A DNA stretch of 55,374 nucleotides from a virus, in IMG/VR virus record IMGVR_UViG_3300005529_001081, positions 1 to 55,374 of that record; one strand, given 5' to 3'. Numbering within the stretch: the stretch's first letter is position 1; each line of letters starts with the position of its first letter. The position numbers and the translations under genes were made by a program. Below, in pieces: positions 3,795 to 33,802 of this stretch. The notes below the pieces were generated by a model that was given only the letters and a program-made list of their open reading frames with translations, was not told where the DNA came from and ran no database searches.

Positions 3795-4096
3795 GCTGAG
3801 ACCTTTCCGGTGCGGAGTCCCGCCTCATGCGCGATGTGCTTTTGGGCGAGTTTCCGGATTTCTAGAATCCGCTCGGCCACGCCGCACAGGTACCGCAGAT
3901 TCACTTTGCCCTTCCGAATTTCCTCGAGGCTCATGAAGTGCGGCAGGATCGCGTCCGCGGTTCCATCCCATTGCGGCCGGGATACTTCGACGTAGCGCTC
4001 GAGCAGCGCGGCGAGCTCTTCGTCGAGGCAGAAAGCCGCGAACAGCGAGATCCGCTCCTGGATCATCAGCGTTTCGGCTTCGGTGAGCTTCTTCAT
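3791..4096 (-). CDS. Hypothetical phage protein (101 aa)
   Basis: A helical 101-residue protein (MKKLTEAETLMIQERISLFA, then DEELAALLERYVEVSRPQWDG). No family recognised. It overlaps the ATPase gene upstream and the HNH gene downstream by 4 bases each, so it may act with them in DNA processing; that link rests on position only. Confidence 0.65.
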   Translation of the reverse strand: MKKLTEAETLMIQERISLFAAFCLDEELAALLERYVEVSRPQWDGTADAILPHFMSLEEIRKGKVNLRYLCGVAERILEIRKLAQKHIAHEAGLRTGKVSA

Positions 4097-5811
4097 CCGA
4101 ACAGCTCCGGAGCGGCGCGCACGCCGCCTTTTTCGGCGATCACCAGCTGGCGGGCGGCCAGGCGCTGAATGTAGGTATCGCGCGAGGACCGCTGGTATTC
4201 AGACAGCTCGCCGATGGTGTCGCGATCGACGAGCTCGCCTTGGGCGTCCGCCAGGATCTCGAGAATTCGCTTTTCCCCAGCCGGCAATCGATCGAGCCAA
4301 TGGGCCAGCAATTCGGATCCGGTGGGCAGCGGCTCGAAATCTCCCAGAGCGGCGATGCCCTCCTCGGTCGGCCGCGGGTCCGCGGACAGATCCACAAATC
4401 CTTTTGCAGCCAACCGCTGCAGATATGTATCGCGCGAGCTGCGCTTATAGCCGGTCAGAACGGTCAGCTGCGGCTTGGTGACCTGCCCGTGCTGCGCTAC
4501 CGCGGCGAGAATCTTGCGCTCGCCGGCCGGCAGCTCGGCTGTACCTTCGGAGCTATTACCAACCCGTATATTACGAGTTCGGGAAGGGGCGGGAGCCGCA
4601 GGCCTGGCCGGCCCCGGCTTGATGGGCGTACCTGTGCTTCGCTCGGGCCGTTGGCTCGCGCGCTGATACGCGGCCGCAGAGCGCGCGTTCGCGACCGCGT
4701 GCAGAATTTCCCGGCCGATGGTCTCGAGCCGCGCGAGCGCTTCCTCGGAGACCACCTGGACCTCGACCGGCTTCTCGATGATCTTCTCTATCGGAGTCTG
4801 CGGCCTGCGCTCGAGCTCGGCCTTGAGCCGCGCGGCCTCCTTCTGCGCATCGGCCAGCTTGCGGCGCAGCTCGCGCGGATCTTCAGCCTTCGCTTTCTCA
4901 ATGGTCTCGGCGAGGCGCTGCTCCAGGCGCGCCAAGTCGACCGCAGCCAGTTTCCGCGGCGCCGCGCGCGTGCCCCCGACCTCGGGAGTTGCCGAGGAGT
5001 CAAATGTTTCGAGCTTCCGGACCTTAACGCACTGAAACAGGTCAAGCCAGGCCGGGCTCCAGAACCAGGCTTTCTCGACCGCGAGCGATGCGAGCGAATT
5101 CATCATCAGCGCCTGCTTCTCCGGTGTCCCGTGCACTTTCACCCAGGCCTCGATCGCCGCGCGGTCCTGCGGCGCGATCGTGCGCTTGGCAATCAGCACT
5201 TCGATCTGCGTGAGCAGATCCTTGTTGATCGATGCCGACCGCTGCGTAATCATCGTGACCCCGATCCCGCGGGCCCGCCCTCGGCGAACCAGGTCTTCCA
5301 TCGCGCCCAGGAGTCGCGGGGCGAGATTCCCTACCGGCCGCTGCGGCGCCCAGGCGTCGGCCTCATCGATGAACAGGTGGAGTGCTTCGCGATTCAAACG
5401 GTAGAGCGATTCGGCGAAGCCGATCATGAACTGCGTCTGCTCGCCCTTGCGGAAGCGCGAGAGATCGATCACCACCGAAATCTTTTCTTCGACCAGGAAG
5501 CGCGCGATCTCCTCGCCGGCTTTCTCGGTTGCCTGGAGCGGCAGGTCGCCATAATCGCCGCCGAGAACGGTGATCGGCAGCCCAGGAGATTTGCCGGAAG
5601 CCGCCAGGCGCAGGCCCCACCAGTTGCCGATCGGATCCACAGCGCAGACGTGCGCATTGGCGCCGAGCATCTCCTCAGCCAGTACTTTGGCGGTGTAGGA
5701 TTTTCCGCCGCCGCGCTTCCCCAGAATCCCGAAGGTCTGCGTGACCGCCTCGAGCGGCAGAGTTAAGTCCGAAGCGATTTGTAGGGCATTCGGCGCCGCT
5801 GCCGGCATCAC
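4093..5811 (-). CDS. HerA-like P-loop ATPase with two C-terminal winged-helix repeats
   Basis: A 572-residue protein. Walker A is GKRGGGKSYT (residues about 31-40) and Walker B is LHLFIDEADAW (about 142-152), followed by RG-ARGIGVTMITQR, the sensor/arginine region typical of HerA/FtsK-like DNA translocases. Residues about 300-360 form a coiled coil (ARLEQRLAETIEKAKAED). The C-terminus has two tandem winged-helix-like repeats, each with A-GE--IL--- and Y-RSSRDTY-QRLAA. The family pumps DNA or assists end processing, usually with NurA, which is not present here. The start is GTG at 5811 followed at once by ATG. It could support replication, packaging-independent DNA handling or segregation. Confidence 0.8.
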   Translation of the reverse strand: MMPAAAPNALQIASDLTLPLEAVTQTFGILGKRGGGKSYTAKVLAEEMLGANAHVCAVDPIGNWWGLRLAASGKSPGLPITVLGGDYGDLPLQATEKAGEEIARFLVEEKISVVIDLSRFRKGEQTQFMIGFAESLYRLNREALHLFIDEADAWAPQRPVGNLAPRLLGAMEDLVRRGRARGIGVTMITQRSASINKDLLTQIEVLIAKRTIAPQDRAAIEAWVKVHGTPEKQALMMNSLASLAVEKAWFWSPAWLDLFQCVKVRKLETFDSSATPEVGGTRAAPRKLAAVDLARLEQRLAETIEKAKAEDPRELRRKLADAQKEAARLKAELERRPQTPIEKIIEKPVEVQVVSEEALARLETIGREILHAVANARSAAAYQRASQRPERSTGTPIKPGPARPAAPAPSRTRNIRVGNSSEGTAELPAGERKILAAVAQHGQVTKPQLTVLTGYKRSSRDTYLQRLAAKGFVDLSADPRPTEEGIAALGDFEPLPTGSELLAHWLDRLPAGEKRILEILADAQGELVDRDTIGELSEYQRSSRDTYIQRLAARQLVIAEKGGVRAAPELFG

Positions 5812-7263: not shown

Positions 7264-7776
7264 CTATGGCGACGCAGGTTGCTGCGCCGCAGGCTTACAG
7301 TCGTCGAGATACCGCCCGAGCCTGAATCCGAGATTCCAAGCCCATCGCACCAGCGGAGTGTCGAACGGATTTCGAGCGTGCTGATTCTTCCCGTCCCGCA
7401 GGCGCCGATAACACCGCAGACCTTCGCGTTCGGAGAAGGCCAAGAAATCCTGCTCGCTCATCCCGTCCGGACTCTGCTCCTGATCGCGCGACAGGAAGTG
7501 ATAATGGACGCACTTCTCGCACGCCAGGCGAAGCCTGAACCCGTCGGCCTGGGAGTCGCGCCCGTTGAAGCCATCAATGCACAGCTCGCACAGCATCGCG
7601 CCCCAAGCGTCATGGGTGGGCTCGCAGCGGAAAAATACCTGCGCGCCGCCGAGAACGTGTACGCAGATTGCTACGCCCGAGACAGACTGCCCCGGATGGA
7701 TCCGGCATTCGACCTTTGGATGGTTGCACGGCCGAACCTCCGGCAGCTCCAGAACTTTTTCCGTGGAGCGTTTCAT
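7264..7776 (-). CDS. Cysteine-rich probable zinc-binding protein (170 aa)
   Basis: The 170-residue product holds Cys/His clusters: PCNHPKVECRIHPGQ near the N-terminus and LCELCIDGFNG followed by CEKCVHYHF in the middle, which fits one or two zinc sites. The C-terminal third is basic and aromatic. Family not recognised. It is translated directly after the replication protein (4-base overlap 7773-7776), so a role in replication or transcription is possible by position only. Confidence 0.6.
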   Translation of the reverse strand: MKRSTEKVLELPEVRPCNHPKVECRIHPGQSVSGVAICVHVLGGAQVFFRCEPTHDAWGAMLCELCIDGFNGRDSQADGFRLRLACEKCVHYHFLSRDQEQSPDGMSEQDFLAFSEREGLRCYRRLRDGKNQHARNPFDTPLVRWAWNLGFRLGRYLDDCKPAAQQPASP

Positions 7777-8915
7777 GACCCCTCTTCCACGATGAACTCC
7801 ACGCGCTGCACGCCGATCCCGAGATGGACAGCGGCGGCACGGATCTGGCCCGTGAATATTTCGCGGATATAATCCGCGGTCACTTGCTGCGGAACGCGAA
7901 TTGTTAGCACTGCACGCTCGTGCGAGCTGAAGGCGGTTTGCAGCAACCAGTTGCTGTATTCGGTCTCCGAAACCATTCGCTTCAGTTCGGCGCGGATTCG
8001 TGACCAGGGGCTCGACGAATCCTCCGGCTCAGCTTTGAAATTCTTCTTCTCTGCCGTAGCTTCCTGCTTCGGAGAAGGCGAAAGCACTTGCACCGCGGCG
8101 GCATATCCGTCGCGCGCCTCTTTCGCCAGCTTCGGGAAAAGGCCGCTTTGAACGCTGTGCCGGTCACGCCGGACGCGATTTCGTACGACCCCCATGAAAT
8201 GTTCAATGGGAGTCGGCCCCAGCTCGGCGGCGACGTCGTTGAGTAGCTTCTCATCAGGGACTTTGCCGAGGCCAAGATGGACGAACACCGGCGTCAAGGC
8301 TTCCCTGAGCTTCGGAACCAACACCGATACTGGAGTATCGGGGGTGGCCTTTAACCTGATGGAAACACTCAGACCATCGTCAGATATGGACTCGCTTACC
8401 CGAACCGATTCAGGAGCGTCGTATGTCACCGGAAGCTCGCCGCGCTCGACGATCGAACGAGGCAGCGAAACAACTACCGGAGCGGATGGCGTCCGCGACT
8501 TGTATTCCTGGCGGTCTAACGTCTTGGGCTCGAGCTTCGGAGCGGAGCGAAATTTTTCCACCAGAGCACGATACTCAAGACTGCGGCCCACGTCTCCGCG
8601 GGATTGGATAAGACCCAGCTCGTCCTCGAGCTGCCCGAGCGCCTTACGAACGCCGATGGCCGAAGCCGCGCACTCCTCCGCCAGCTCTGTGATCTCAAGC
8701 CTGGCCCAGTCTTGGTGTCCATCCGGAGATCCCCAGGTGTTCCGGAGAATAATCCCGACGATTTTGTAAGGAAGTCCGTCCAACCGCGCAGGAAGGAAAT
8801 CGAAATAATCGTTGGGTATCGAGGACCATCCGCCGCGAACCTTTGGGGATCTGCCACCGTTTTCGGAGCCGGCCTGCACGACGGATTTGCGCGCGGGAGC
8901 TGGTGCGGCGGCCAT
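7773..8915 (-). CDS. Putative replication initiator with DnaA-domain-I-like C-terminus
   Basis: A 380-residue protein; the start at 8915 forms a TAATG overlap with the upstream gene. Residues about 30-130 (IPNDYFDFLPARLDGLPYKIVGIILRNTWG then RLEITELAEECAASAIGVRKAL) look like the winged-helix N-terminus of phage replication proteins. The last 75 residues, W--I-AELKRMVSETEYSNWL ... LTIRVPQQVTADYIREIF, match DnaA domain I, the part that binds helicase or helicase loader. The AAA+ and DNA-binding domains of DnaA are absent. It would recruit the host helicase to the phage origin. A GATACTGGAGTATC palindrome lies inside the gene at 8326-8339. Confidence 0.7.
   Translation of the reverse strand: MAAAPAPARKSVVQAGSENGGRSPKVRGGWSSIPNDYFDFLPARLDGLPYKIVGIILRNTWGSPDGHQDWARLEITELAEECAASAIGVRKALGQLEDELGLIQSRGDVGRSLEYRALVEKFRSAPKLEPKTLDRQEYKSRTPSAPVVVSLPRSIVERGELPVTYDAPESVRVSESISDDGLSVSIRLKATPDTPVSVLVPKLREALTPVFVHLGLGKVPDEKLLNDVAAELGPTPIEHFMGVVRNRVRRDRHSVQSGLFPKLAKEARDGYAAAVQVLSPSPKQEATAEKKNFKAEPEDSSSPWSRIRAELKRMVSETEYSNWLLQTAFSSHERAVLTIRVPQQVTADYIREIFTGQIRAAAVHLGIGVQRVEFIVEEGS
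8326..8343. repeat. Copy of the GATACTGGAGTATC palindrome inside the replication gene
   Basis: GATACTGGAGTATCGGGG here is identical over 18 bases to the copy starting at 11385. On the coding strand it encodes Asp-Thr-Pro-Val-Ser. Phage origins often lie within the initiator gene, so this may be a binding site of the protein or of a regulator that acts at both places. Confidence 0.6.
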
Positions 8916-9145
8916 TAGCGTGTAGCTCCCGCGGCCGCAGTTCCGAGCGCGTTCGCCATCGCGGAAACCGCGGCTTTGTGATCGCGCTCCATCTGTGCTT
9001 CCAGCGCGACGCTCCAGTGCACCACGCCCCCAAAAACGCCGCTCGTGTCGGAGAAGCACAGATCGGTGATCTTCCGCCAGCCGCGATCCACAAGAAACTT
9101 TCCGATCGATTCGATGGTGATCTCTGGCGCCGAGCTCGGATGCAC
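8915..9145 (-). CDS. Hypothetical phage protein (76 aa)
   Basis: The start chosen is GTG at 9145 because AGGAGG stands 5 bases before it; an in-frame GTG at 9160 lacks a site. The product has an alpha-beta half (ITIESIGKFLVDRGWRKITDLCFSD) and an alanine-rich helical end. Family unknown. The stop overlaps the ATG of the replication gene (TAATG), so it is coupled to replication. Confidence 0.6.
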   Translation of the reverse strand: MHPSSAPEITIESIGKFLVDRGWRKITDLCFSDTSGVFGGVVHWSVALEAQMERDHKAAVSAMANALGTAAAGATR

Positions 9146-11384: not shown

Positions 11385-11445
11385 GATACTGGAGTATCGG
11401 GGTCACACTGATACTCCAGTATCGAAAAAGCGGTACCCGAGTATC
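11385..11445. repeat. Array of three GATACTGGAGTATC-type palindromes
   Basis: Copy 1 at 11385-11398 is GATACTGGAGTATC; copy 2 at 11410-11423 is its exact inverse GATACTCCAGTATC; copy 3 at 11432-11445, GGTACCCGAGTATC, matches 11 of 14 positions. Centres are 25 and 22 bases apart. A further exact copy is at 8326 in the replication gene. The spacing of about two helical turns suggests iterons or operators. An AT-rich stretch (TTAAATATTAA, about 11460) and a hairpin (ACTTCT/AGAAGT, 11484-11500) follow, as in many origins. Confidence 0.7.
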
Positions 11446-11576: not shown

Positions 11577-12176
11577 TCACCATTGGCCGGCAAGTCGCTG
11601 GCCGAGTTCGTCACGCCGTTTGTTGCGCACCTTGAGGTAGCGCATCGTGCTCCGTATATCGCGATGACCAAGGTGATCCTGGACTTCCTCGGCCGATGCT
11701 CTTTCTCCCAGCAGCGTTCCGGCCGAATGACGTAGACAATGGAAGTGGCGTTTGGATTCCGGAAGGCCTGCACGAGCTCCGTAGTGCTTCATGAGCTGGT
11801 CAAGCCTGCTCCTCGATACCGGCCGCCCACCTTGGCGAGACACAAACAGCGGTCCCGGCCCTGTTCCGCGGATCGCGATCCATTTCCGCAGCGCGCGCAC
11901 CTCGCGATCCGTCAGTAAATATTCTCCGGAGTTGCCGCCCTTCAGTCTCTCGATGTAGAGCCTCCTGGCAGTCATCCGCAGGCCCGAAACTTTTAGGCGG
12001 CCTACCTCGCTCGCGCGCAGCCCGCGGTGGAACGCGACCTCAAAGATCGCCAGGTCGCGGGGAGAGTCAATCGAGCGAAACAGCGCATCGAGCTCGTCTT
12101 CGTTCAGGTACTGCAGGTCTCGCCCGGAGTACTTTCGCGCGCGGGAAACGGGCGCTTTCCGCTTCTGTAAGTCCAT
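11577..12176 (-). CDS. Catalytic-domain-only tyrosine recombinase (recombinase 2)
   Basis: At 199 residues it holds only the catalytic domain, like FimB/FimE, with all catalytic residues: R54 (HRGLRASEVG), K79 (ERLKGGNS), H146-x-x-R149 (HFHCLRHSAG), H171 (DHLGHRD) and Y180 (TMRYLKV). The N-terminal core-binding domain of normal integrases is missing. It lies just downstream of a 28-bp palindrome (12196-12223) that has the 11-6-11 arrangement of Xer/dif-type sites, and of the Ku gene. It may invert or excise DNA at that site, resolve multimers, or simply be an old host-derived XerD-like gene. Confidence 0.85.
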   Translation of the reverse strand: MDLQKRKAPVSRARKYSGRDLQYLNEDELDALFRSIDSPRDLAIFEVAFHRGLRASEVGRLKVSGLRMTARRLYIERLKGGNSGEYLLTDREVRALRKWIAIRGTGPGPLFVSRQGGRPVSRSRLDQLMKHYGARAGLPESKRHFHCLRHSAGTLLGERASAEEVQDHLGHRDIRSTMRYLKVRNKRRDELGQRLAGQW

Positions 12177-12194
12177 TCATTTCAACATCGGTTC

Positions 12195-12224
12195 AGTTGG
12201 ACAGAATCTGCATTCTGTCCAACT
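12195..12224. repeat. Perfect palindrome, candidate recombinase site or operator
   Basis: AGTTGGACAGAAT (12195-12207), four bases, ATTCTGTCCAACT (12212-12224): 13-bp perfect arms. Counted as 11-bp arms it leaves a 6-bp centre (TCTGCA), the geometry of dif sites. It sits 19-48 bases upstream of the recombinase 2 start codon. It could be the crossover site or an operator controlling recombinase 2. Confidence 0.65.
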
Positions 12225-12287
12225 CGCGGGGTTTGCCGAACGTGTTTTGAACGGCTTAGCGGCGGCCGCGGAGGGCCTCCACTCGCA

Positions 12288-12302
12288 ATTCTGTCCAACT
12301 CG
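12288..12302. repeat. Direct repeat of one palindrome arm
   Basis: ATTCTGTCCAACTCG repeats 12212-12226 exactly, 76 bases away, just after the Ku stop codon. A degenerate arm (AGCTGGACAAAAC, 13091-13103) and a weaker one (GGTTGGAGAAGAT, near 13114-13126) occur in front of Ku. So the arm sequence brackets the Ku gene. Confidence 0.55.
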
Positions 12303-12308
12303 TGGAAT

Positions 12309-13052
12309 TCAGCCCCGGGCGGCAGTGCGCCGGCTCCGAGAGGGCTTCTCCCCGGCACCCAGGCCGGGTAGGGTACTCCCGGCGGCAGCTACCTTGGAAG
12401 CGATCAGGCGCTCCACGCGCTGCTGCTGGAGGTCGGGATAGTCCTGGTAGCCGAAATCGCCCGCGGCTCGTTTAAGCGCGCGCATCGCGGCCGTGATCTC
12501 CGATTCAGACGCTGCCTGTTCGTCGGTCCTGAACTCGTCGAGCGATCGCAGCTCATGGGAGAAGAAAAGCGTGTGAGCCACGATCCCCAATTTCCCGGCC
12601 CGGAAGATCATTGGACGCTCGCGGGAATAGAGCCTCATCAGCGCTATGCCCGCAAGCGACGTCCTACGGAGCGCACCGAAAAGAGCCGCGTAAGGTAGCT
12701 CGTCTTGCGCGGGCGCCACGTAGTAGGACGATTCAAACTGGGTCGGATCCATCTGCTCGAGCGGCACGAAACGAAGCTCGATCGAGTCGCCTGCGGCCGG
12801 AGCCAGGCTCTCGATTTCTTCTTCGGTGAGAGTAGCGAACTTGCCTTTCTCGTATTCGTAGCCTTTCACCAGCTCGGTGCGAGCGATCGGCTTGTCCTCG
12901 CCCTGGCAGTACAAGACCTGCTTCACGCGGGACAGGTCTGTGGCGTGGAGCTGATTGAAAGACGGATTCTCTCCCCGCGCTCCCGTCAGAATCCTGACTG
13001 CGACCGATCGGCCGCCGTAGACCAGTTGTCCCTTCCAGACCGGTGTGCCCAT
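12309..13052 (-). CDS. ku: Ku protein (non-homologous end joining)
   Basis: The 247-residue product matches bacterial Ku over its length: WKGQLVYGGRSVAVRI at the N-terminus, the core VKGYEYEKGKFATLTEEEIESLAP, DPTQFESSYYVAP and the beta-barrel end ERPMIFRAGKLGIVAHTLFF. The size is typical of bacterial Ku; the last 30 residues are basic. Ku homodimers ring DNA ends and recruit ligase LigD, which is not encoded here and would come from the host. A few actinobacteriophages carry Ku and use it for genome circularisation. AAAGG is about 7 bases before the ATG. Opposite in direction to the late operon, it is probably expressed early or in lysogeny. Confidence 0.93.
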   Translation of the reverse strand: MGTPVWKGQLVYGGRSVAVRILTGARGENPSFNQLHATDLSRVKQVLYCQGEDKPIARTELVKGYEYEKGKFATLTEEEIESLAPAAGDSIELRFVPLEQMDPTQFESSYYVAPAQDELPYAALFGALRRTSLAGIALMRLYSRERPMIFRAGKLGIVAHTLFFSHELRSLDEFRTDEQAASESEITAAMRALKRAAGDFGYQDYPDLQQQRVERLIASKVAAAGSTLPGLGAGEKPSRSRRTAARG

Positions 13053-13194
13053 ACCAGCCCTTTCGGCTCACGAGCAAATCCCTTCACTTGAGCTGGACAA
13101 AACGCTCTGACGCGGTTGGAGAAGATCCTTTTTCCTCCGAGATATTTAGGCCTCGAATTCGGGGCCATCGTGTCGGATTCCGCTGCCCGCTCCG

Positions 13195-13360: not shown

Positions 13361-13918
13361 TTGGAATCCTCAACGTCGGCGCCAATCGGCCTGAGGCTAT
13401 GGCCGTTCTTCGTTCAAGCCAGCAAGAACAACCCACCGGACACGGATCCGTATCCGGCGCAATCGCGGGCGTGGACGGCCGACCAGGCGCGCGCATTGGC
13501 TTCGCGCAGCTGCTCAGGCTGCTGCGGATCCGGCCTTCGCGCCATCGCTGGCGACATCACTCCATGCGGCTGCGTTCTGCGCCGCATTTTCAATCATTGC
13601 TTTTCTCGTTACCTCGAGTGCATCGAACGGCCGCGCCGATTCGGGCCCAAGAACGAGGACTTCATATCCGATTTTGAGCTCGTTGGACTGCGTGCGCTCA
13701 GCAACGACAAGGAGCGGCAGCTTTTCCGGCTCATTTTCATTTCCGGCGTGGATCATCGGAGGAGCGCCGAGATTCTGGGCCTGGATAACGCCAGGTTCCG
13801 CGGGTGCCTTCGCCGGGTGCAAGAAAAAGCCGGGCGAGCCTTCCGCGAAATCAGACCATACGCTCTGTATCCCACCGGTTCGTATTTTCAGGCGCCCACG
13901 CGGAGGCCCGCGGCCTGA
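13361..13918 (+). CDS. Zinc-finger plus sigma-region-4-like regulator
   Basis: A 185-residue protein starting at TTG with GGGAG 5 bases upstream. Its middle has CSGCCGSGLRAIAGDITPCGCVLRRIF, a CxxCxGxG...CxC cluster found in a family of phage regulators. The C-terminal half, RALSNDKERQLFRLIFISGVDHRRSAEILGLDNARFRGCLRRVQEKAGRAF, matches the helix-turn-helix of sigma-70 region 4. Such proteins sit at the start of late operons in many siphoviruses and probably act as transcription activators or antiterminators. Its stop overlaps the next ATG (TGATG). Confidence 0.65.
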   Translation: MESSTSAPIGLRLWPFFVQASKNNPPDTDPYPAQSRAWTADQARALASRSCSGCCGSGLRAIAGDITPCGCVLRRIFNHCFSRYLECIERPRRFGPKNEDFISDFELVGLRALSNDKERQLFRLIFISGVDHRRSAEILGLDNARFRGCLRRVQEKAGRAFREIRPYALYPTGSYFQAPTRRPAA

Positions 13919-31852: not shown

Positions 31853-32932
31853 ATGCCAGCAAGAATTCAAGAGCTTAAAATCGGCATCGGGTTTCACCGC
31901 CAGACGGGCACCGGCGCCAGCGGAACGACCAAAACGCAGCTACAGACCGCCTTGGCGGCCATCGATCTGTGGAATCTCGGCCTGAACGCGTTTAACGCAC
32001 CCTTCCCTCAATTCAAAGCCGAAGACGATTCGGACTTCTTCGGCAAGGGCGACGAATGGGTGCGCCAGGTCTTTCCGACCTCGCTCGACGTGCCGTGGGA
32101 GTGGCCTTACTTCCTGACGAGTCAAAACTTCGCCCAGGTGATCGCTTTCGCGCTGGGGAAAACCACGAAGACTCCCGCGGGAAGCGGATTCCAGTACGTG
32201 GCCACTCCGATGGATCCCGTGACCGACGGAGTAAATCTGCCGGCCACGACTGTCGTTGCGGGCATCCGTCAGGCGACCGCAGGCGAAATGCTCGACATGG
32301 CTATCATCGGCATGGTCTGCACCGGATTCACCTTCCGGCTGACCAAGGGGTCTGGCCTTCAGAATAGCTCGCTAGTGTCGAGGTGGTCCGGCTGCGGCAA
32401 GTTCTCGAACAATTCAGGGGTTACGATCCCGGCGCGCTCAAACGAGGCTCGACTCGGCGCCGGCTCGGCCACAGCGATCAACATCAATGGTGTCGATTAC
32501 ATCACAAATGCCCGCTTTGTGGATCTCGAGTTCACCTACGATAACGGGTACAACCCGGAAGCGGGCAAGTTCCCCGGATCTGGATCCCAGAGCGGTTACG
32601 ACATCGGTGGGCGCGCGCGATTCGGGAAACGCACCGCTTCCCTGGTCTGGACCGTCGAACTGGAGCAAGATTCGCAAGAGCTTTCTGACCTAACAAGCCA
32701 GGTGGTCGGGTCCAGCCACATCCAACTGGTTGGCGCGGCGATCGGCGGCGGATCTTTCCACACCGCCGATATCTTGCTGCCGCAAACGATTCACAAAGAG
32801 TTCTCCATGCAGGACTCTGGCGACGGCTTCGTTGCTGCCAAGGTGGTGACAGCGATCGAATTCAACGACAGCCTCGGACCGATGGTTCTCACCGCCATCA
32901 CCGACAAAGACGAGATCGGAGAAGACGCGTAA
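31853..32932 (+). CDS. Major tail tube protein
   Basis: A strong site (GGAAGGAG) precedes the ATG. The 359-residue protein is beta-rich: IGIGFHRQTGTGASGTTKT, DVPWEWPYFLTSQNFAQVIAFALG, ARLGAGSATAININGVDYITNARFVDLEFTYDNG, and FSMQDSGDGFVAAKVVTAIEFND. Position before the tail chaperone pair and tape measure identifies it as the tail tube subunit, equivalent to lambda V. It is longer than the usual 150-250 residues and may carry an outward-facing extra domain. Confidence 0.75.
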   Translation: MPARIQELKIGIGFHRQTGTGASGTTKTQLQTALAAIDLWNLGLNAFNAPFPQFKAEDDSDFFGKGDEWVRQVFPTSLDVPWEWPYFLTSQNFAQVIAFALGKTTKTPAGSGFQYVATPMDPVTDGVNLPATTVVAGIRQATAGEMLDMAIIGMVCTGFTFRLTKGSGLQNSSLVSRWSGCGKFSNNSGVTIPARSNEARLGAGSATAININGVDYITNARFVDLEFTYDNGYNPEAGKFPGSGSQSGYDIGGRARFGKRTASLVWTVELEQDSQELSDLTSQVVGSSHIQLVGAAIGGGSFHTADILLPQTIHKEFSMQDSGDGFVAAKVVTAIEFNDSLGPMVLTAITDKDEIGEDA

Positions 32933-32933
32933 A

Positions 32934-33530
32934 ATGTTCAATTCCCGCGAGCCGTTCAAGGTCCGGATCCTTTCAGGGACCGAGAAGATTTGCGAGGTCA
33001 ACTACCCCTCGGACAGGCAATGGTGCGAGCTGGCACGCAAAAAGAAGAGCATCAAGCGACAGACCGGCCGTGGCCTCTCGGAATGGGAGGACGCGCCCGG
33101 TCAGGAGTCGCTCGACAAGGAGCTGCTCGACGGGCTCCGGCCTCCGGAGGCCTCGCCCGAGTTCGACAAGTACGAGGCCTCCAAGATCGTCGGCCGCCTG
33201 GCCAGGGCTTCTCTCATTTCGATCGAGAGAAGCCTGGATCTGTTCCGTATCGAGCTGAGAGTGTTCGGCGGTGAAGTCGTGCACACGCTCAAGATGCCGA
33301 CGGAACAGGACAAAGCGGAGCACGAGCGCCTTTCATCGAAGCTGGCCTCCGGTAAGCGGCACATGGAGTACCGGATCGACCTCGAGCCGTCTGGCGCGAT
33401 CTGGGACCGACTGAAGTCAGAAATCTCTGGTTATGCGGAGGAGAGCGCTGTCCCGATCGTTCACAAGGCTGCCGCCTTGGCTGAGCTCATCGCCTATGTG
33501 CAGGAGCTCGAGGCCGAAGACCCGGAATAG
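32934..33530 (+). CDS. Tail assembly chaperone (G-like)
   Basis: A 198-residue helical protein (DRQWCELARKKKSIKRQTGRGLSE; LARASLISIERSLDLFRIELRVFGGEVVHTLKMPTEQDKAE) between tail tube and tape measure, where lambda G lies. It should bind the tape measure protein and control tail assembly. The -1 frame opens at 33485, before its stop at 33528-33530, and stays open to 33802, giving a G-T-like frameshift product. Confidence 0.75.
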   Translation: MFNSREPFKVRILSGTEKICEVNYPSDRQWCELARKKKSIKRQTGRGLSEWEDAPGQESLDKELLDGLRPPEASPEFDKYEASKIVGRLARASLISIERSLDLFRIELRVFGGEVVHTLKMPTEQDKAEHERLSSKLASGKRHMEYRIDLEPSGAIWDRLKSEISGYAEESAVPIVHKAAALAELIAYVQELEAEDPE

Positions 33531-33802
33531 CGTCGGGCCCGGCGATTCGCAGCACCATCCGGGCCCTCCTCGAAGGCCAGCCTGTCGAGGATACATCTTT
33601 ACTGTCAAGACTTCGGAGGCTGGATATTGCCCTGAAGCTCGGGTTCACGCTCACTCTGGCAGATGTCACGGCCGAGGAGTTCCTCGGCCTAACCATTCTC
33701 AACGAAGAACGCGATCGCATGCGCGCCCTCAGCCAGCAGAGGGATAACTCGATGGAAGAGCTCAGGTCAAAACGCGATTCCGCGGAGTTCGGAACTTTCT
33801 AA
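33485..33802 (+). CDS. -1 frameshift extension of tail assembly chaperone (GT-like)
   Basis: The -1 frame relative to the chaperone is open from 33485 (after TGA at 33482) to TAA at 33800-33802. It reads protein-like, with IRSTIRALLEGQPVEDTSLL, LRRLDIALKLGFTLTLADVT and EEFLGLTILNEERDRMRALS, and has no ATG, GTG or TTG until deep inside. It therefore needs a ribosomal -1 slip in 33485-33530. No perfect X-XXY-YYZ heptamer is present; CCCGGAA before the stop (CCG slipping to CCC in the P site) is the best candidate. The total GT-like product would be about 300 residues. Confidence 0.7.
   Translation, partial: AHRLCAGARGRRPGIASGPAIRSTIRALLEGQPVEDTSLLSRLRRLDIALKLGFTLTLADVTAEEFLGLTILNEERDRMRALSQQRDNSMEELRSKRDSAEFGTF

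Follow-up and report, generated by a model that had tools for sequence, protein, structure and literature searches.

Which protein acts on a perfect palindrome that lies just upstream of a small tyrosine recombinase gene in a phage genome, and what part, if any, does the neighbouring ku gene play? The window, by which we mean the whole stretch of DNA analysed, spans an entire IMG/VR virus record (55,374 bases), although the virus itself may be a fragment. The initial annotation described a module of recombinase, palindrome and ku with arm repeats bracketing ku. It proposed that either the recombinase acts on these sites, for excision or inversion of ku or for multimer resolution, or that one regulator controls both genes. 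Our analysis puts the recombinase and its predicted folded site, not ku, at the centre of the finding.

The window encodes a terminase large subunit, a portal, a tape measure protein and tail proteins. Its early region additionally holds, besides the normal terminase, an ATPase gene (4093-5811) with the P-loop GKRGGGKSYT and a weak likeness to terminases and HerA-type translocases. The features of the locus are collected in Table 1.

Table 1. Positions of the recombinase gene, its candidate sites and the other genes discussed, in window coordinates
Feature	Position	Strand	Evidence
Full-size tyrosine integrase, 500 aa	1123..2625	-	phrog_1 integrase 2.5e-48; PF00589
Catalytic-domain-only tyrosine recombinase, 199 aa	11577..12176	-	PF00589 2.8e-29; AlphaFold model
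Candidate core site, 30-bp palindrome AGTTGGACAGAAT-CTGC-ATTCTGTCCAACT	12195..12224	-	Sequence; 30-bp geometry upstream of most relatives
IHF-like box TAAGCCGTTCAAA, degenerate	12246..12258	-	2 mismatches to IHF consensus, opposite strand
Putative accessory half-site, exact 13-mer arm	12288..12300	-	Sequence; half-site 74-77 bp up in most relatives
ku, 247 aa	12309..13052	-	TIGR02772 169 bits vs cut-off 150

The recombinase consists of a catalytic domain

The 199-aa protein is a tyrosine recombinase, matching the Phage_integrase family PF00589 with 102.5 bits against a cut-off of 27.1. Its RKHRH..Y active site is complete (R54, K79, H146, R149, H171 and Y180). The AlphaFold model, made with 31 relatives and having a pLDDT of 88.8, consists of a single catalytic domain and contains neither an N-terminal core-binding nor an arm-binding domain, which confirms the initial description of a catalytic-domain-only enzyme. 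Among solved structures its fold is closest to XerA and XerH, and FimB/FimE-type proteins are among the best sequence matches (35-39% identity). NCBIfam models of FimB-like, XerA, XerC and XerD proteins match as well, all well under their cut-offs. In bits, the protein scores 68.4 of the 335 required for XerC, 61.5 of 329.6 for XerD, 93.5 of 220 for XerA and 53.5 of 267 for XerS, and for FimB/FimE 96.7 of 221 (PRK09870) and 70 of 222 (PRK09871). Telomere resolvases were considered and set aside, the site being short and no matching family being hit.

Searches of IMG/VR and of GTDB genomes yielded about 55 loci with relatives of this recombinase, and the named genomes among them are Bryobacterales (Acidobacteriota) MAGs. 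Across 31 relatives R54, K79, H146, H171 and Y180 are invariant. Position 149, in box II, is arginine in the window and its near kin and lysine (HxxK) in about two thirds of the other relatives, so recombinase activity is not assured in all of them. The HxxK form, found at L008, L009, L010, L021-L024 and other loci, is an unusual natural variant of the active site.

The recombinase gene often lies within 3 kb of a gene for a RecB-like nuclease-type protein (loci L005, L009, L010, L011, L016, L043 and L058) and of another shared early gene, in what is a phage recombination region. At L040 (record G286, 32350-33554) a second tyrosine recombinase gene is divergent from the small one, and the half-site and palindrome lie between the two.

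The palindrome and a distant half-site keep a conserved geometry

The palindrome of the window has perfect 13-bp arms around a 4-nt loop (13-4-13), is equally readable as 12-6-12, and ends 18 bp from the ATG of the recombinase gene. By simple arithmetic, about 0.0008 palindromes of this length and loop are expected in 55 kb. The motif GTTGGACA occurs five times in the window, where 0.79 occurrences are expected. An exact copy of one arm, in left-arm orientation, lies 76 bp upstream of the left arm and 8 bp past the ku stop codon. The palindrome and this copy were both noted at the outset, and both are real. Two degenerate arms that had been placed in front of ku do not stand up in the same way. 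The one at 13091-13103 has 3 mismatches, and the window holds 17 matches at this level (at most 3 mismatches) against an expectation of 8.1, spread across the entire record and including the three exact copies at the recombinase; the one at 13114 fails even the 3-mismatch level. All genuine arm copies are confined to the region upstream of the recombinase gene, and no further palindrome or site of this kind was found elsewhere in the window.

A separate perfect palindrome of 14 bp, GATACTGGAGTATC, occurs three times in the window, at 8326, 11385 and 11410 (spans 8326-8341 and 11385-11423). One copy falls within a gene with a DnaA_N domain (7773-9059) and two lie downstream of the recombinase gene; they look like a phage operator or a replication iteron. 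Locus L013 carries similar TGGAGTTGGG repeats at 3980-4040, in the same relative place.

We compared the upstream regions of 45 non-redundant relatives of the recombinase. The common pattern is a 30-bp palindrome (12-6-12 with a TNNNNA centre) directly upstream of the recombinase gene, together with one half-site in left-arm orientation 74-77 bp further up. When palindrome and half-site at this distance were scored together (summed score at least 20 of 26), 27 of the 45 relatives carried the combination, against 2 of 752 control windows taken from the same loci (p 5e-36). The complete site is not recognisable in about a third of the loci, some of which are truncated contigs and others degenerate, as at L006.

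The arm sequences themselves vary from locus to locus (AGTTGGACA, AACCGCCCA, AGTTGAACA, AACCGGACA, AATTGGTGA and others), and the three copies vary together: they agree at 7.9 of 9 positions within a locus compared with 4.7 of 9 between loci, a sum that none of 20,000 shuffles reached. Arm sequence does not simply follow the recombinase tree, as L013 (73% identity) has different arms and L021 (51%) has those of the window. The spacing class tracks this tree, needing 10 changes where shuffles give 23.4. The recombinase gene alone is common to all loci, and no other neighbour is generally shared. Since the site copies co-vary, the spacing follows the recombinase tree and no other gene is generally shared, the recombinase is most likely what binds both palindrome and half-site.

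An operator for an unrelated phage or host repressor, close to the recombinase gene only through promoter placement, is a highly improbable reading of the palindrome. A perfect palindrome close to a promoter is often an operator, and repressor operators, like these arms, vary between phages. However, the loci have no repressor gene in common and the window has no further copies of the site, while the half-site at fixed spacing, the box at the midpoint and the spacing class that follows the tree all point to the recombinase.

Core and half-site differ at one telling position. Of 66 core arms 63 carry T at position 13, whereas 22 of 33 half-sites carry C (that of the window ends in T, unlike this majority), and no second arm was found at the half-sites. 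Because half-sites end in C and lack a second arm, and core arms end in T, the half-site is probably an accessory site that is bound and left uncut. The palindrome is present once per genome in the window, in the complete genome G150, and in G001, G002, G003 and G266. Among distant plasmid relatives (pCL1, Pukyongiella p5, Sphingobium and Nostoc) no matching site geometry was found; the palindrome of pCL1 falls within an apparently Fic-like coding stretch.

A candidate bending site lies at the midpoint

Midway between half-site and core, the window carries a box that resembles a binding site for IHF. The window falls into the 76-bp spacing class, and 12 of the 13 loci in this class have TAAGTnnTTGATT, exact or degenerate, at one constant position 29 nt into the spacer. 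Read on the opposite strand the box becomes AATCAAnnACTTA, in agreement with the IHF consensus WATCAANNNNTTR; on that strand five loci of this class, as well as L017 of the 77-bp class, match the consensus perfectly. The centre of the box lies 48.5 bp from the start of the half-site, compared with a geometric midpoint of 48.8 bp in the 76-bp class. Loci of the 74-bp class conserve another box, GAAAAACATTGGG (A-rich CATTGGG), at their own midpoint, and the IHF-like box is absent from the 77-bp loci L025, L029, L030 and L041. A promoter was considered for the TAAGTnnTTGATT box; there is no -10 hexamer at a plausible distance, and we prefer the IHF reading. The hosts encode three or four HU/IHF-family (DNABII) proteins, none of which scores above the IHF-alpha cut-off. 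The bending protein may for this reason be HU, or else an IHF-like protein.

A half-site with a bend at the midpoint is also the typical layout of a repression loop, and in most loci the palindrome lies within the leader of the recombinase gene, just before its start codon. The protein might accordingly be read as a recombinase-derived regulator that uses palindrome and half-site as operators and represses its own promoter through an IHF-assisted loop, strand exchange not being its role. The precedent is MrpR of phage SPbeta, a repressor with a tyrosine-recombinase fold that has lost the catalytic residues and controls many sites (PMC10516654). MrpR and the protein studied here share the fold and act, or would act, at repeated DNA elements in phages, but here five catalytic residues are invariant in 31 relatives, and the window, having no further sites, offers no regulon. 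Strand exchange is also in keeping with the constant TNNNNA centre of 6 bp and with the base that distinguishes core arms from half-sites at the cleavage-proximal position. We therefore regard a purely regulatory role as unlikely, although it is the alternative that deserves most attention.

ku is an occasional neighbour

The ku gene is the upstream neighbour of the recombinase gene and has the same orientation. Among 39 virus records that carry the recombinase or a relative, the window included, ku occurs in three (the window, L013 and L014) and is absent from 36 of the 38 others, which rules out an obligatory pairing of the two genes. At L013 and L014 the recombinase is 73% identical to that of the window, and ku, at 40.6% identity, lies directly upstream. 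The palindrome is kept in these relatives with both genes, in the same order and at the same 76-bp spacing and with a different arm sequence, as the initial annotation had required of a genuine module. The window and L013 form one supported clade in the recombinase tree. As the window and L013 group in this way and the other 36 records lack the gene, ku most likely joined the module once, in the window/L013 branch, and does not belong to the mechanism of the site.

Excision or inversion of ku by the recombinase, at sites bracketing the gene, has next to no probability. The half-site does lie just past the ku stop codon, and ku and recombinase genes are neighbours at L013 and L014 too. But the copies before ku in the window are chance-level matches, and in L013, the closest relative that carries the two genes, no arm copies precede ku, so the arms do not bracket the gene. 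The half-site of L013 falls inside the 3' end of the ku reading frame (2595-2607, with the stop codon at 2639), most relatives have the site and no ku, and each genome tested has one full palindrome. The suggested common regulator of both genes fares no better on the side of ku, which has no site of its own; autoregulation of the recombinase is still likely because the palindrome usually lies just before its start codon.

No partner (ATP-dependent) ligase for Ku was found in the window or in the L013 and L014 records. Divergent from ku is a small gene (13361-13918), perhaps for a sigma-like regulator, with homologues near the recombinase gene at L013, L014, L021 and L049.

Prophage context

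The separate 500-aa integrase means that the small recombinase of the window need not be the integrase, and because 9 of the 39 virus records, the window among them, hold a full-size integrase, it is often not the sole candidate. Some loci nevertheless place it close to tRNA-derived ends. In the complete genome G150, the gene at L056 lies at the prophage end, the last before a duplication of the tRNA-Gly 3' end about 70 bp away. The gene of L017 is followed, at the contig end, by the 3' end of a tRNA; less clearly, L011 has a tRNA-like 3' fragment that separates the element from enolase. These loci suggest a partner in excision or integration, with the palindrome part of an attP-like complex at the attachment site. 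Against this, the opposite prophage end in G150 carries a canonical integrase-like gene of 372 aa, assigned from its sequence; prophages keep a single, intact palindrome, which integration has thus not split; and the window gene adjoins neither an integrase gene nor a contig end. We consider such a role improbable. At tRNA-Gly(CCC), G150 also holds two elements in tandem, both terminating in a copy of the 3' end of this tRNA (L079, 1454-1528; L075, 15329; L069, 13487).

Comparison with known recombination systems

By analogy, the closest working model would be the TnpI/irs system of Tn4430 and Tn5401. The irs site lies upstream of tnpI and has a core, IR1-IR2, and accessory repeats, DR1/DR2; these extra same-orientation copies are bound by TnpI itself, and TnpI binding modulates expression (PMC7157771). 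The phage module resembles it in having a site directly upstream of its own recombinase gene, an inverted-repeat core and extra copy in the same orientation. It differs in that one half-site 74-77 bp away stands in place of two accessory direct repeats, the gene belongs to phages and prophages, its product has no domain besides the catalytic one, and core and half-site have a putative bending box between them. TnpI/irs systems form part of Tn3-family transposons with TnpA, and resolve directly repeated sites in supercoiled DNA.

In the single-recombinase systems XerS/difSL and XerH/difH, the gene of the one recombinase is linked to a single, nearly palindromic site some 30 bp long (PMC5357621). 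The phage recombinase, whose fold is nearest to XerA and XerH, likewise has a gene-linked single site, and its 30-bp single-copy palindrome agrees with the Xer/dif pattern of a two-arm site of 28-31 bp, one per replicon. XerS and XerH differ in having N-terminal domains (about 355 aa). We know of no accessory half-site or IHF-like box described for either system.

FimB/FimE invertases share the catalytic-domain-only size of about 200 aa, and IHF takes part at fimS (PMC6083910). Their pattern of two inverted repeats flanking an invertible element is not found here, where each genome has a single core and the half-site is in direct orientation. The likeness to lambda-type attL/attP is that an IHF site separates the core from a distal site for the recombinase and lies about 42 bp from either one. 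The distal site here differs in having the sequence of the core half-sites, and the 199-aa protein, modelled as a catalytic domain only, lacks the separate N-terminal arm-binding and core-binding domains of lambda-type enzymes. Judged by these parallels, the module may work like TnpI/irs or a minimal lambda attL, yet it belongs to neither, and it departs from the Xer and FimB/FimE systems too in at least one tested feature each. A search of the literature in an open library found no description of this arrangement.

A model for the recombination module

We favour, with moderate confidence, a self-contained site-specific recombination module with a core palindrome, an accessory half-site, an IHF/HU-dependent fold, autorepression and, as its likely task, multimer resolution. 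The 199-aa protein would be an active tyrosine recombinase, with its own recombination complex assembled on the DNA directly upstream of the gene. Two protomers would occupy the 12-6-12 palindrome as the crossover core, and one further protomer the single half-site 74-77 bp away. An IHF/HU-family protein at the exact midpoint would fold the DNA and bring the half-site against the core. Binding of the recombinase at the core would also repress its own synthesis, since the core overlaps the promoter or leader of the gene. ku would have no role in the mechanism and at most profit from a common early DNA-metabolism operon.

Strand exchange would pair two phage DNA copies, and its most plausible result is the conversion of dimers or concatemers to monomers. 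Since each genome tested has one palindrome, any exchange has to involve two copies of the element; this points to dimer or concatemer resolution and favours it over inversion or excision of ku. As with resolvases, the folded accessory site could serve as a topological filter. Why these phages would need multimer resolution is not obvious, given that several of them integrate. That the recombinase acts on these sites, with multimer resolution as the outcome, is the part of the initial proposal that the conserved geometry, the co-changing arm copies and the lack of any other shared gene support well.

More tentatively, the module could represent a new class: a minimal complex in which a catalytic-domain-only enzyme reads one motif three times, twice in the core and once in the distal half-site, around an IHF/HU bend at the midpoint, and a third protomer regulates both exchange and expression without an arm-binding domain.

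Implications

The arrangement looks like a previously undescribed, self-contained recombination switch, found in many phages of soil Acidobacteriota at near-exact distances. If the model is right, it would explain a puzzling phage arrangement and separate it from ku. The module would be among the simplest regulated tyrosine-recombinase systems, with a gene of about 600 bp and a site of about 110 bp, and would show how control by core and accessory sites can arise with no additional protein domains. More than 30 natural pairs of enzyme and site, with visibly different targets, would then be available for learning how recombinase specificity is determined and for small genetic tools.
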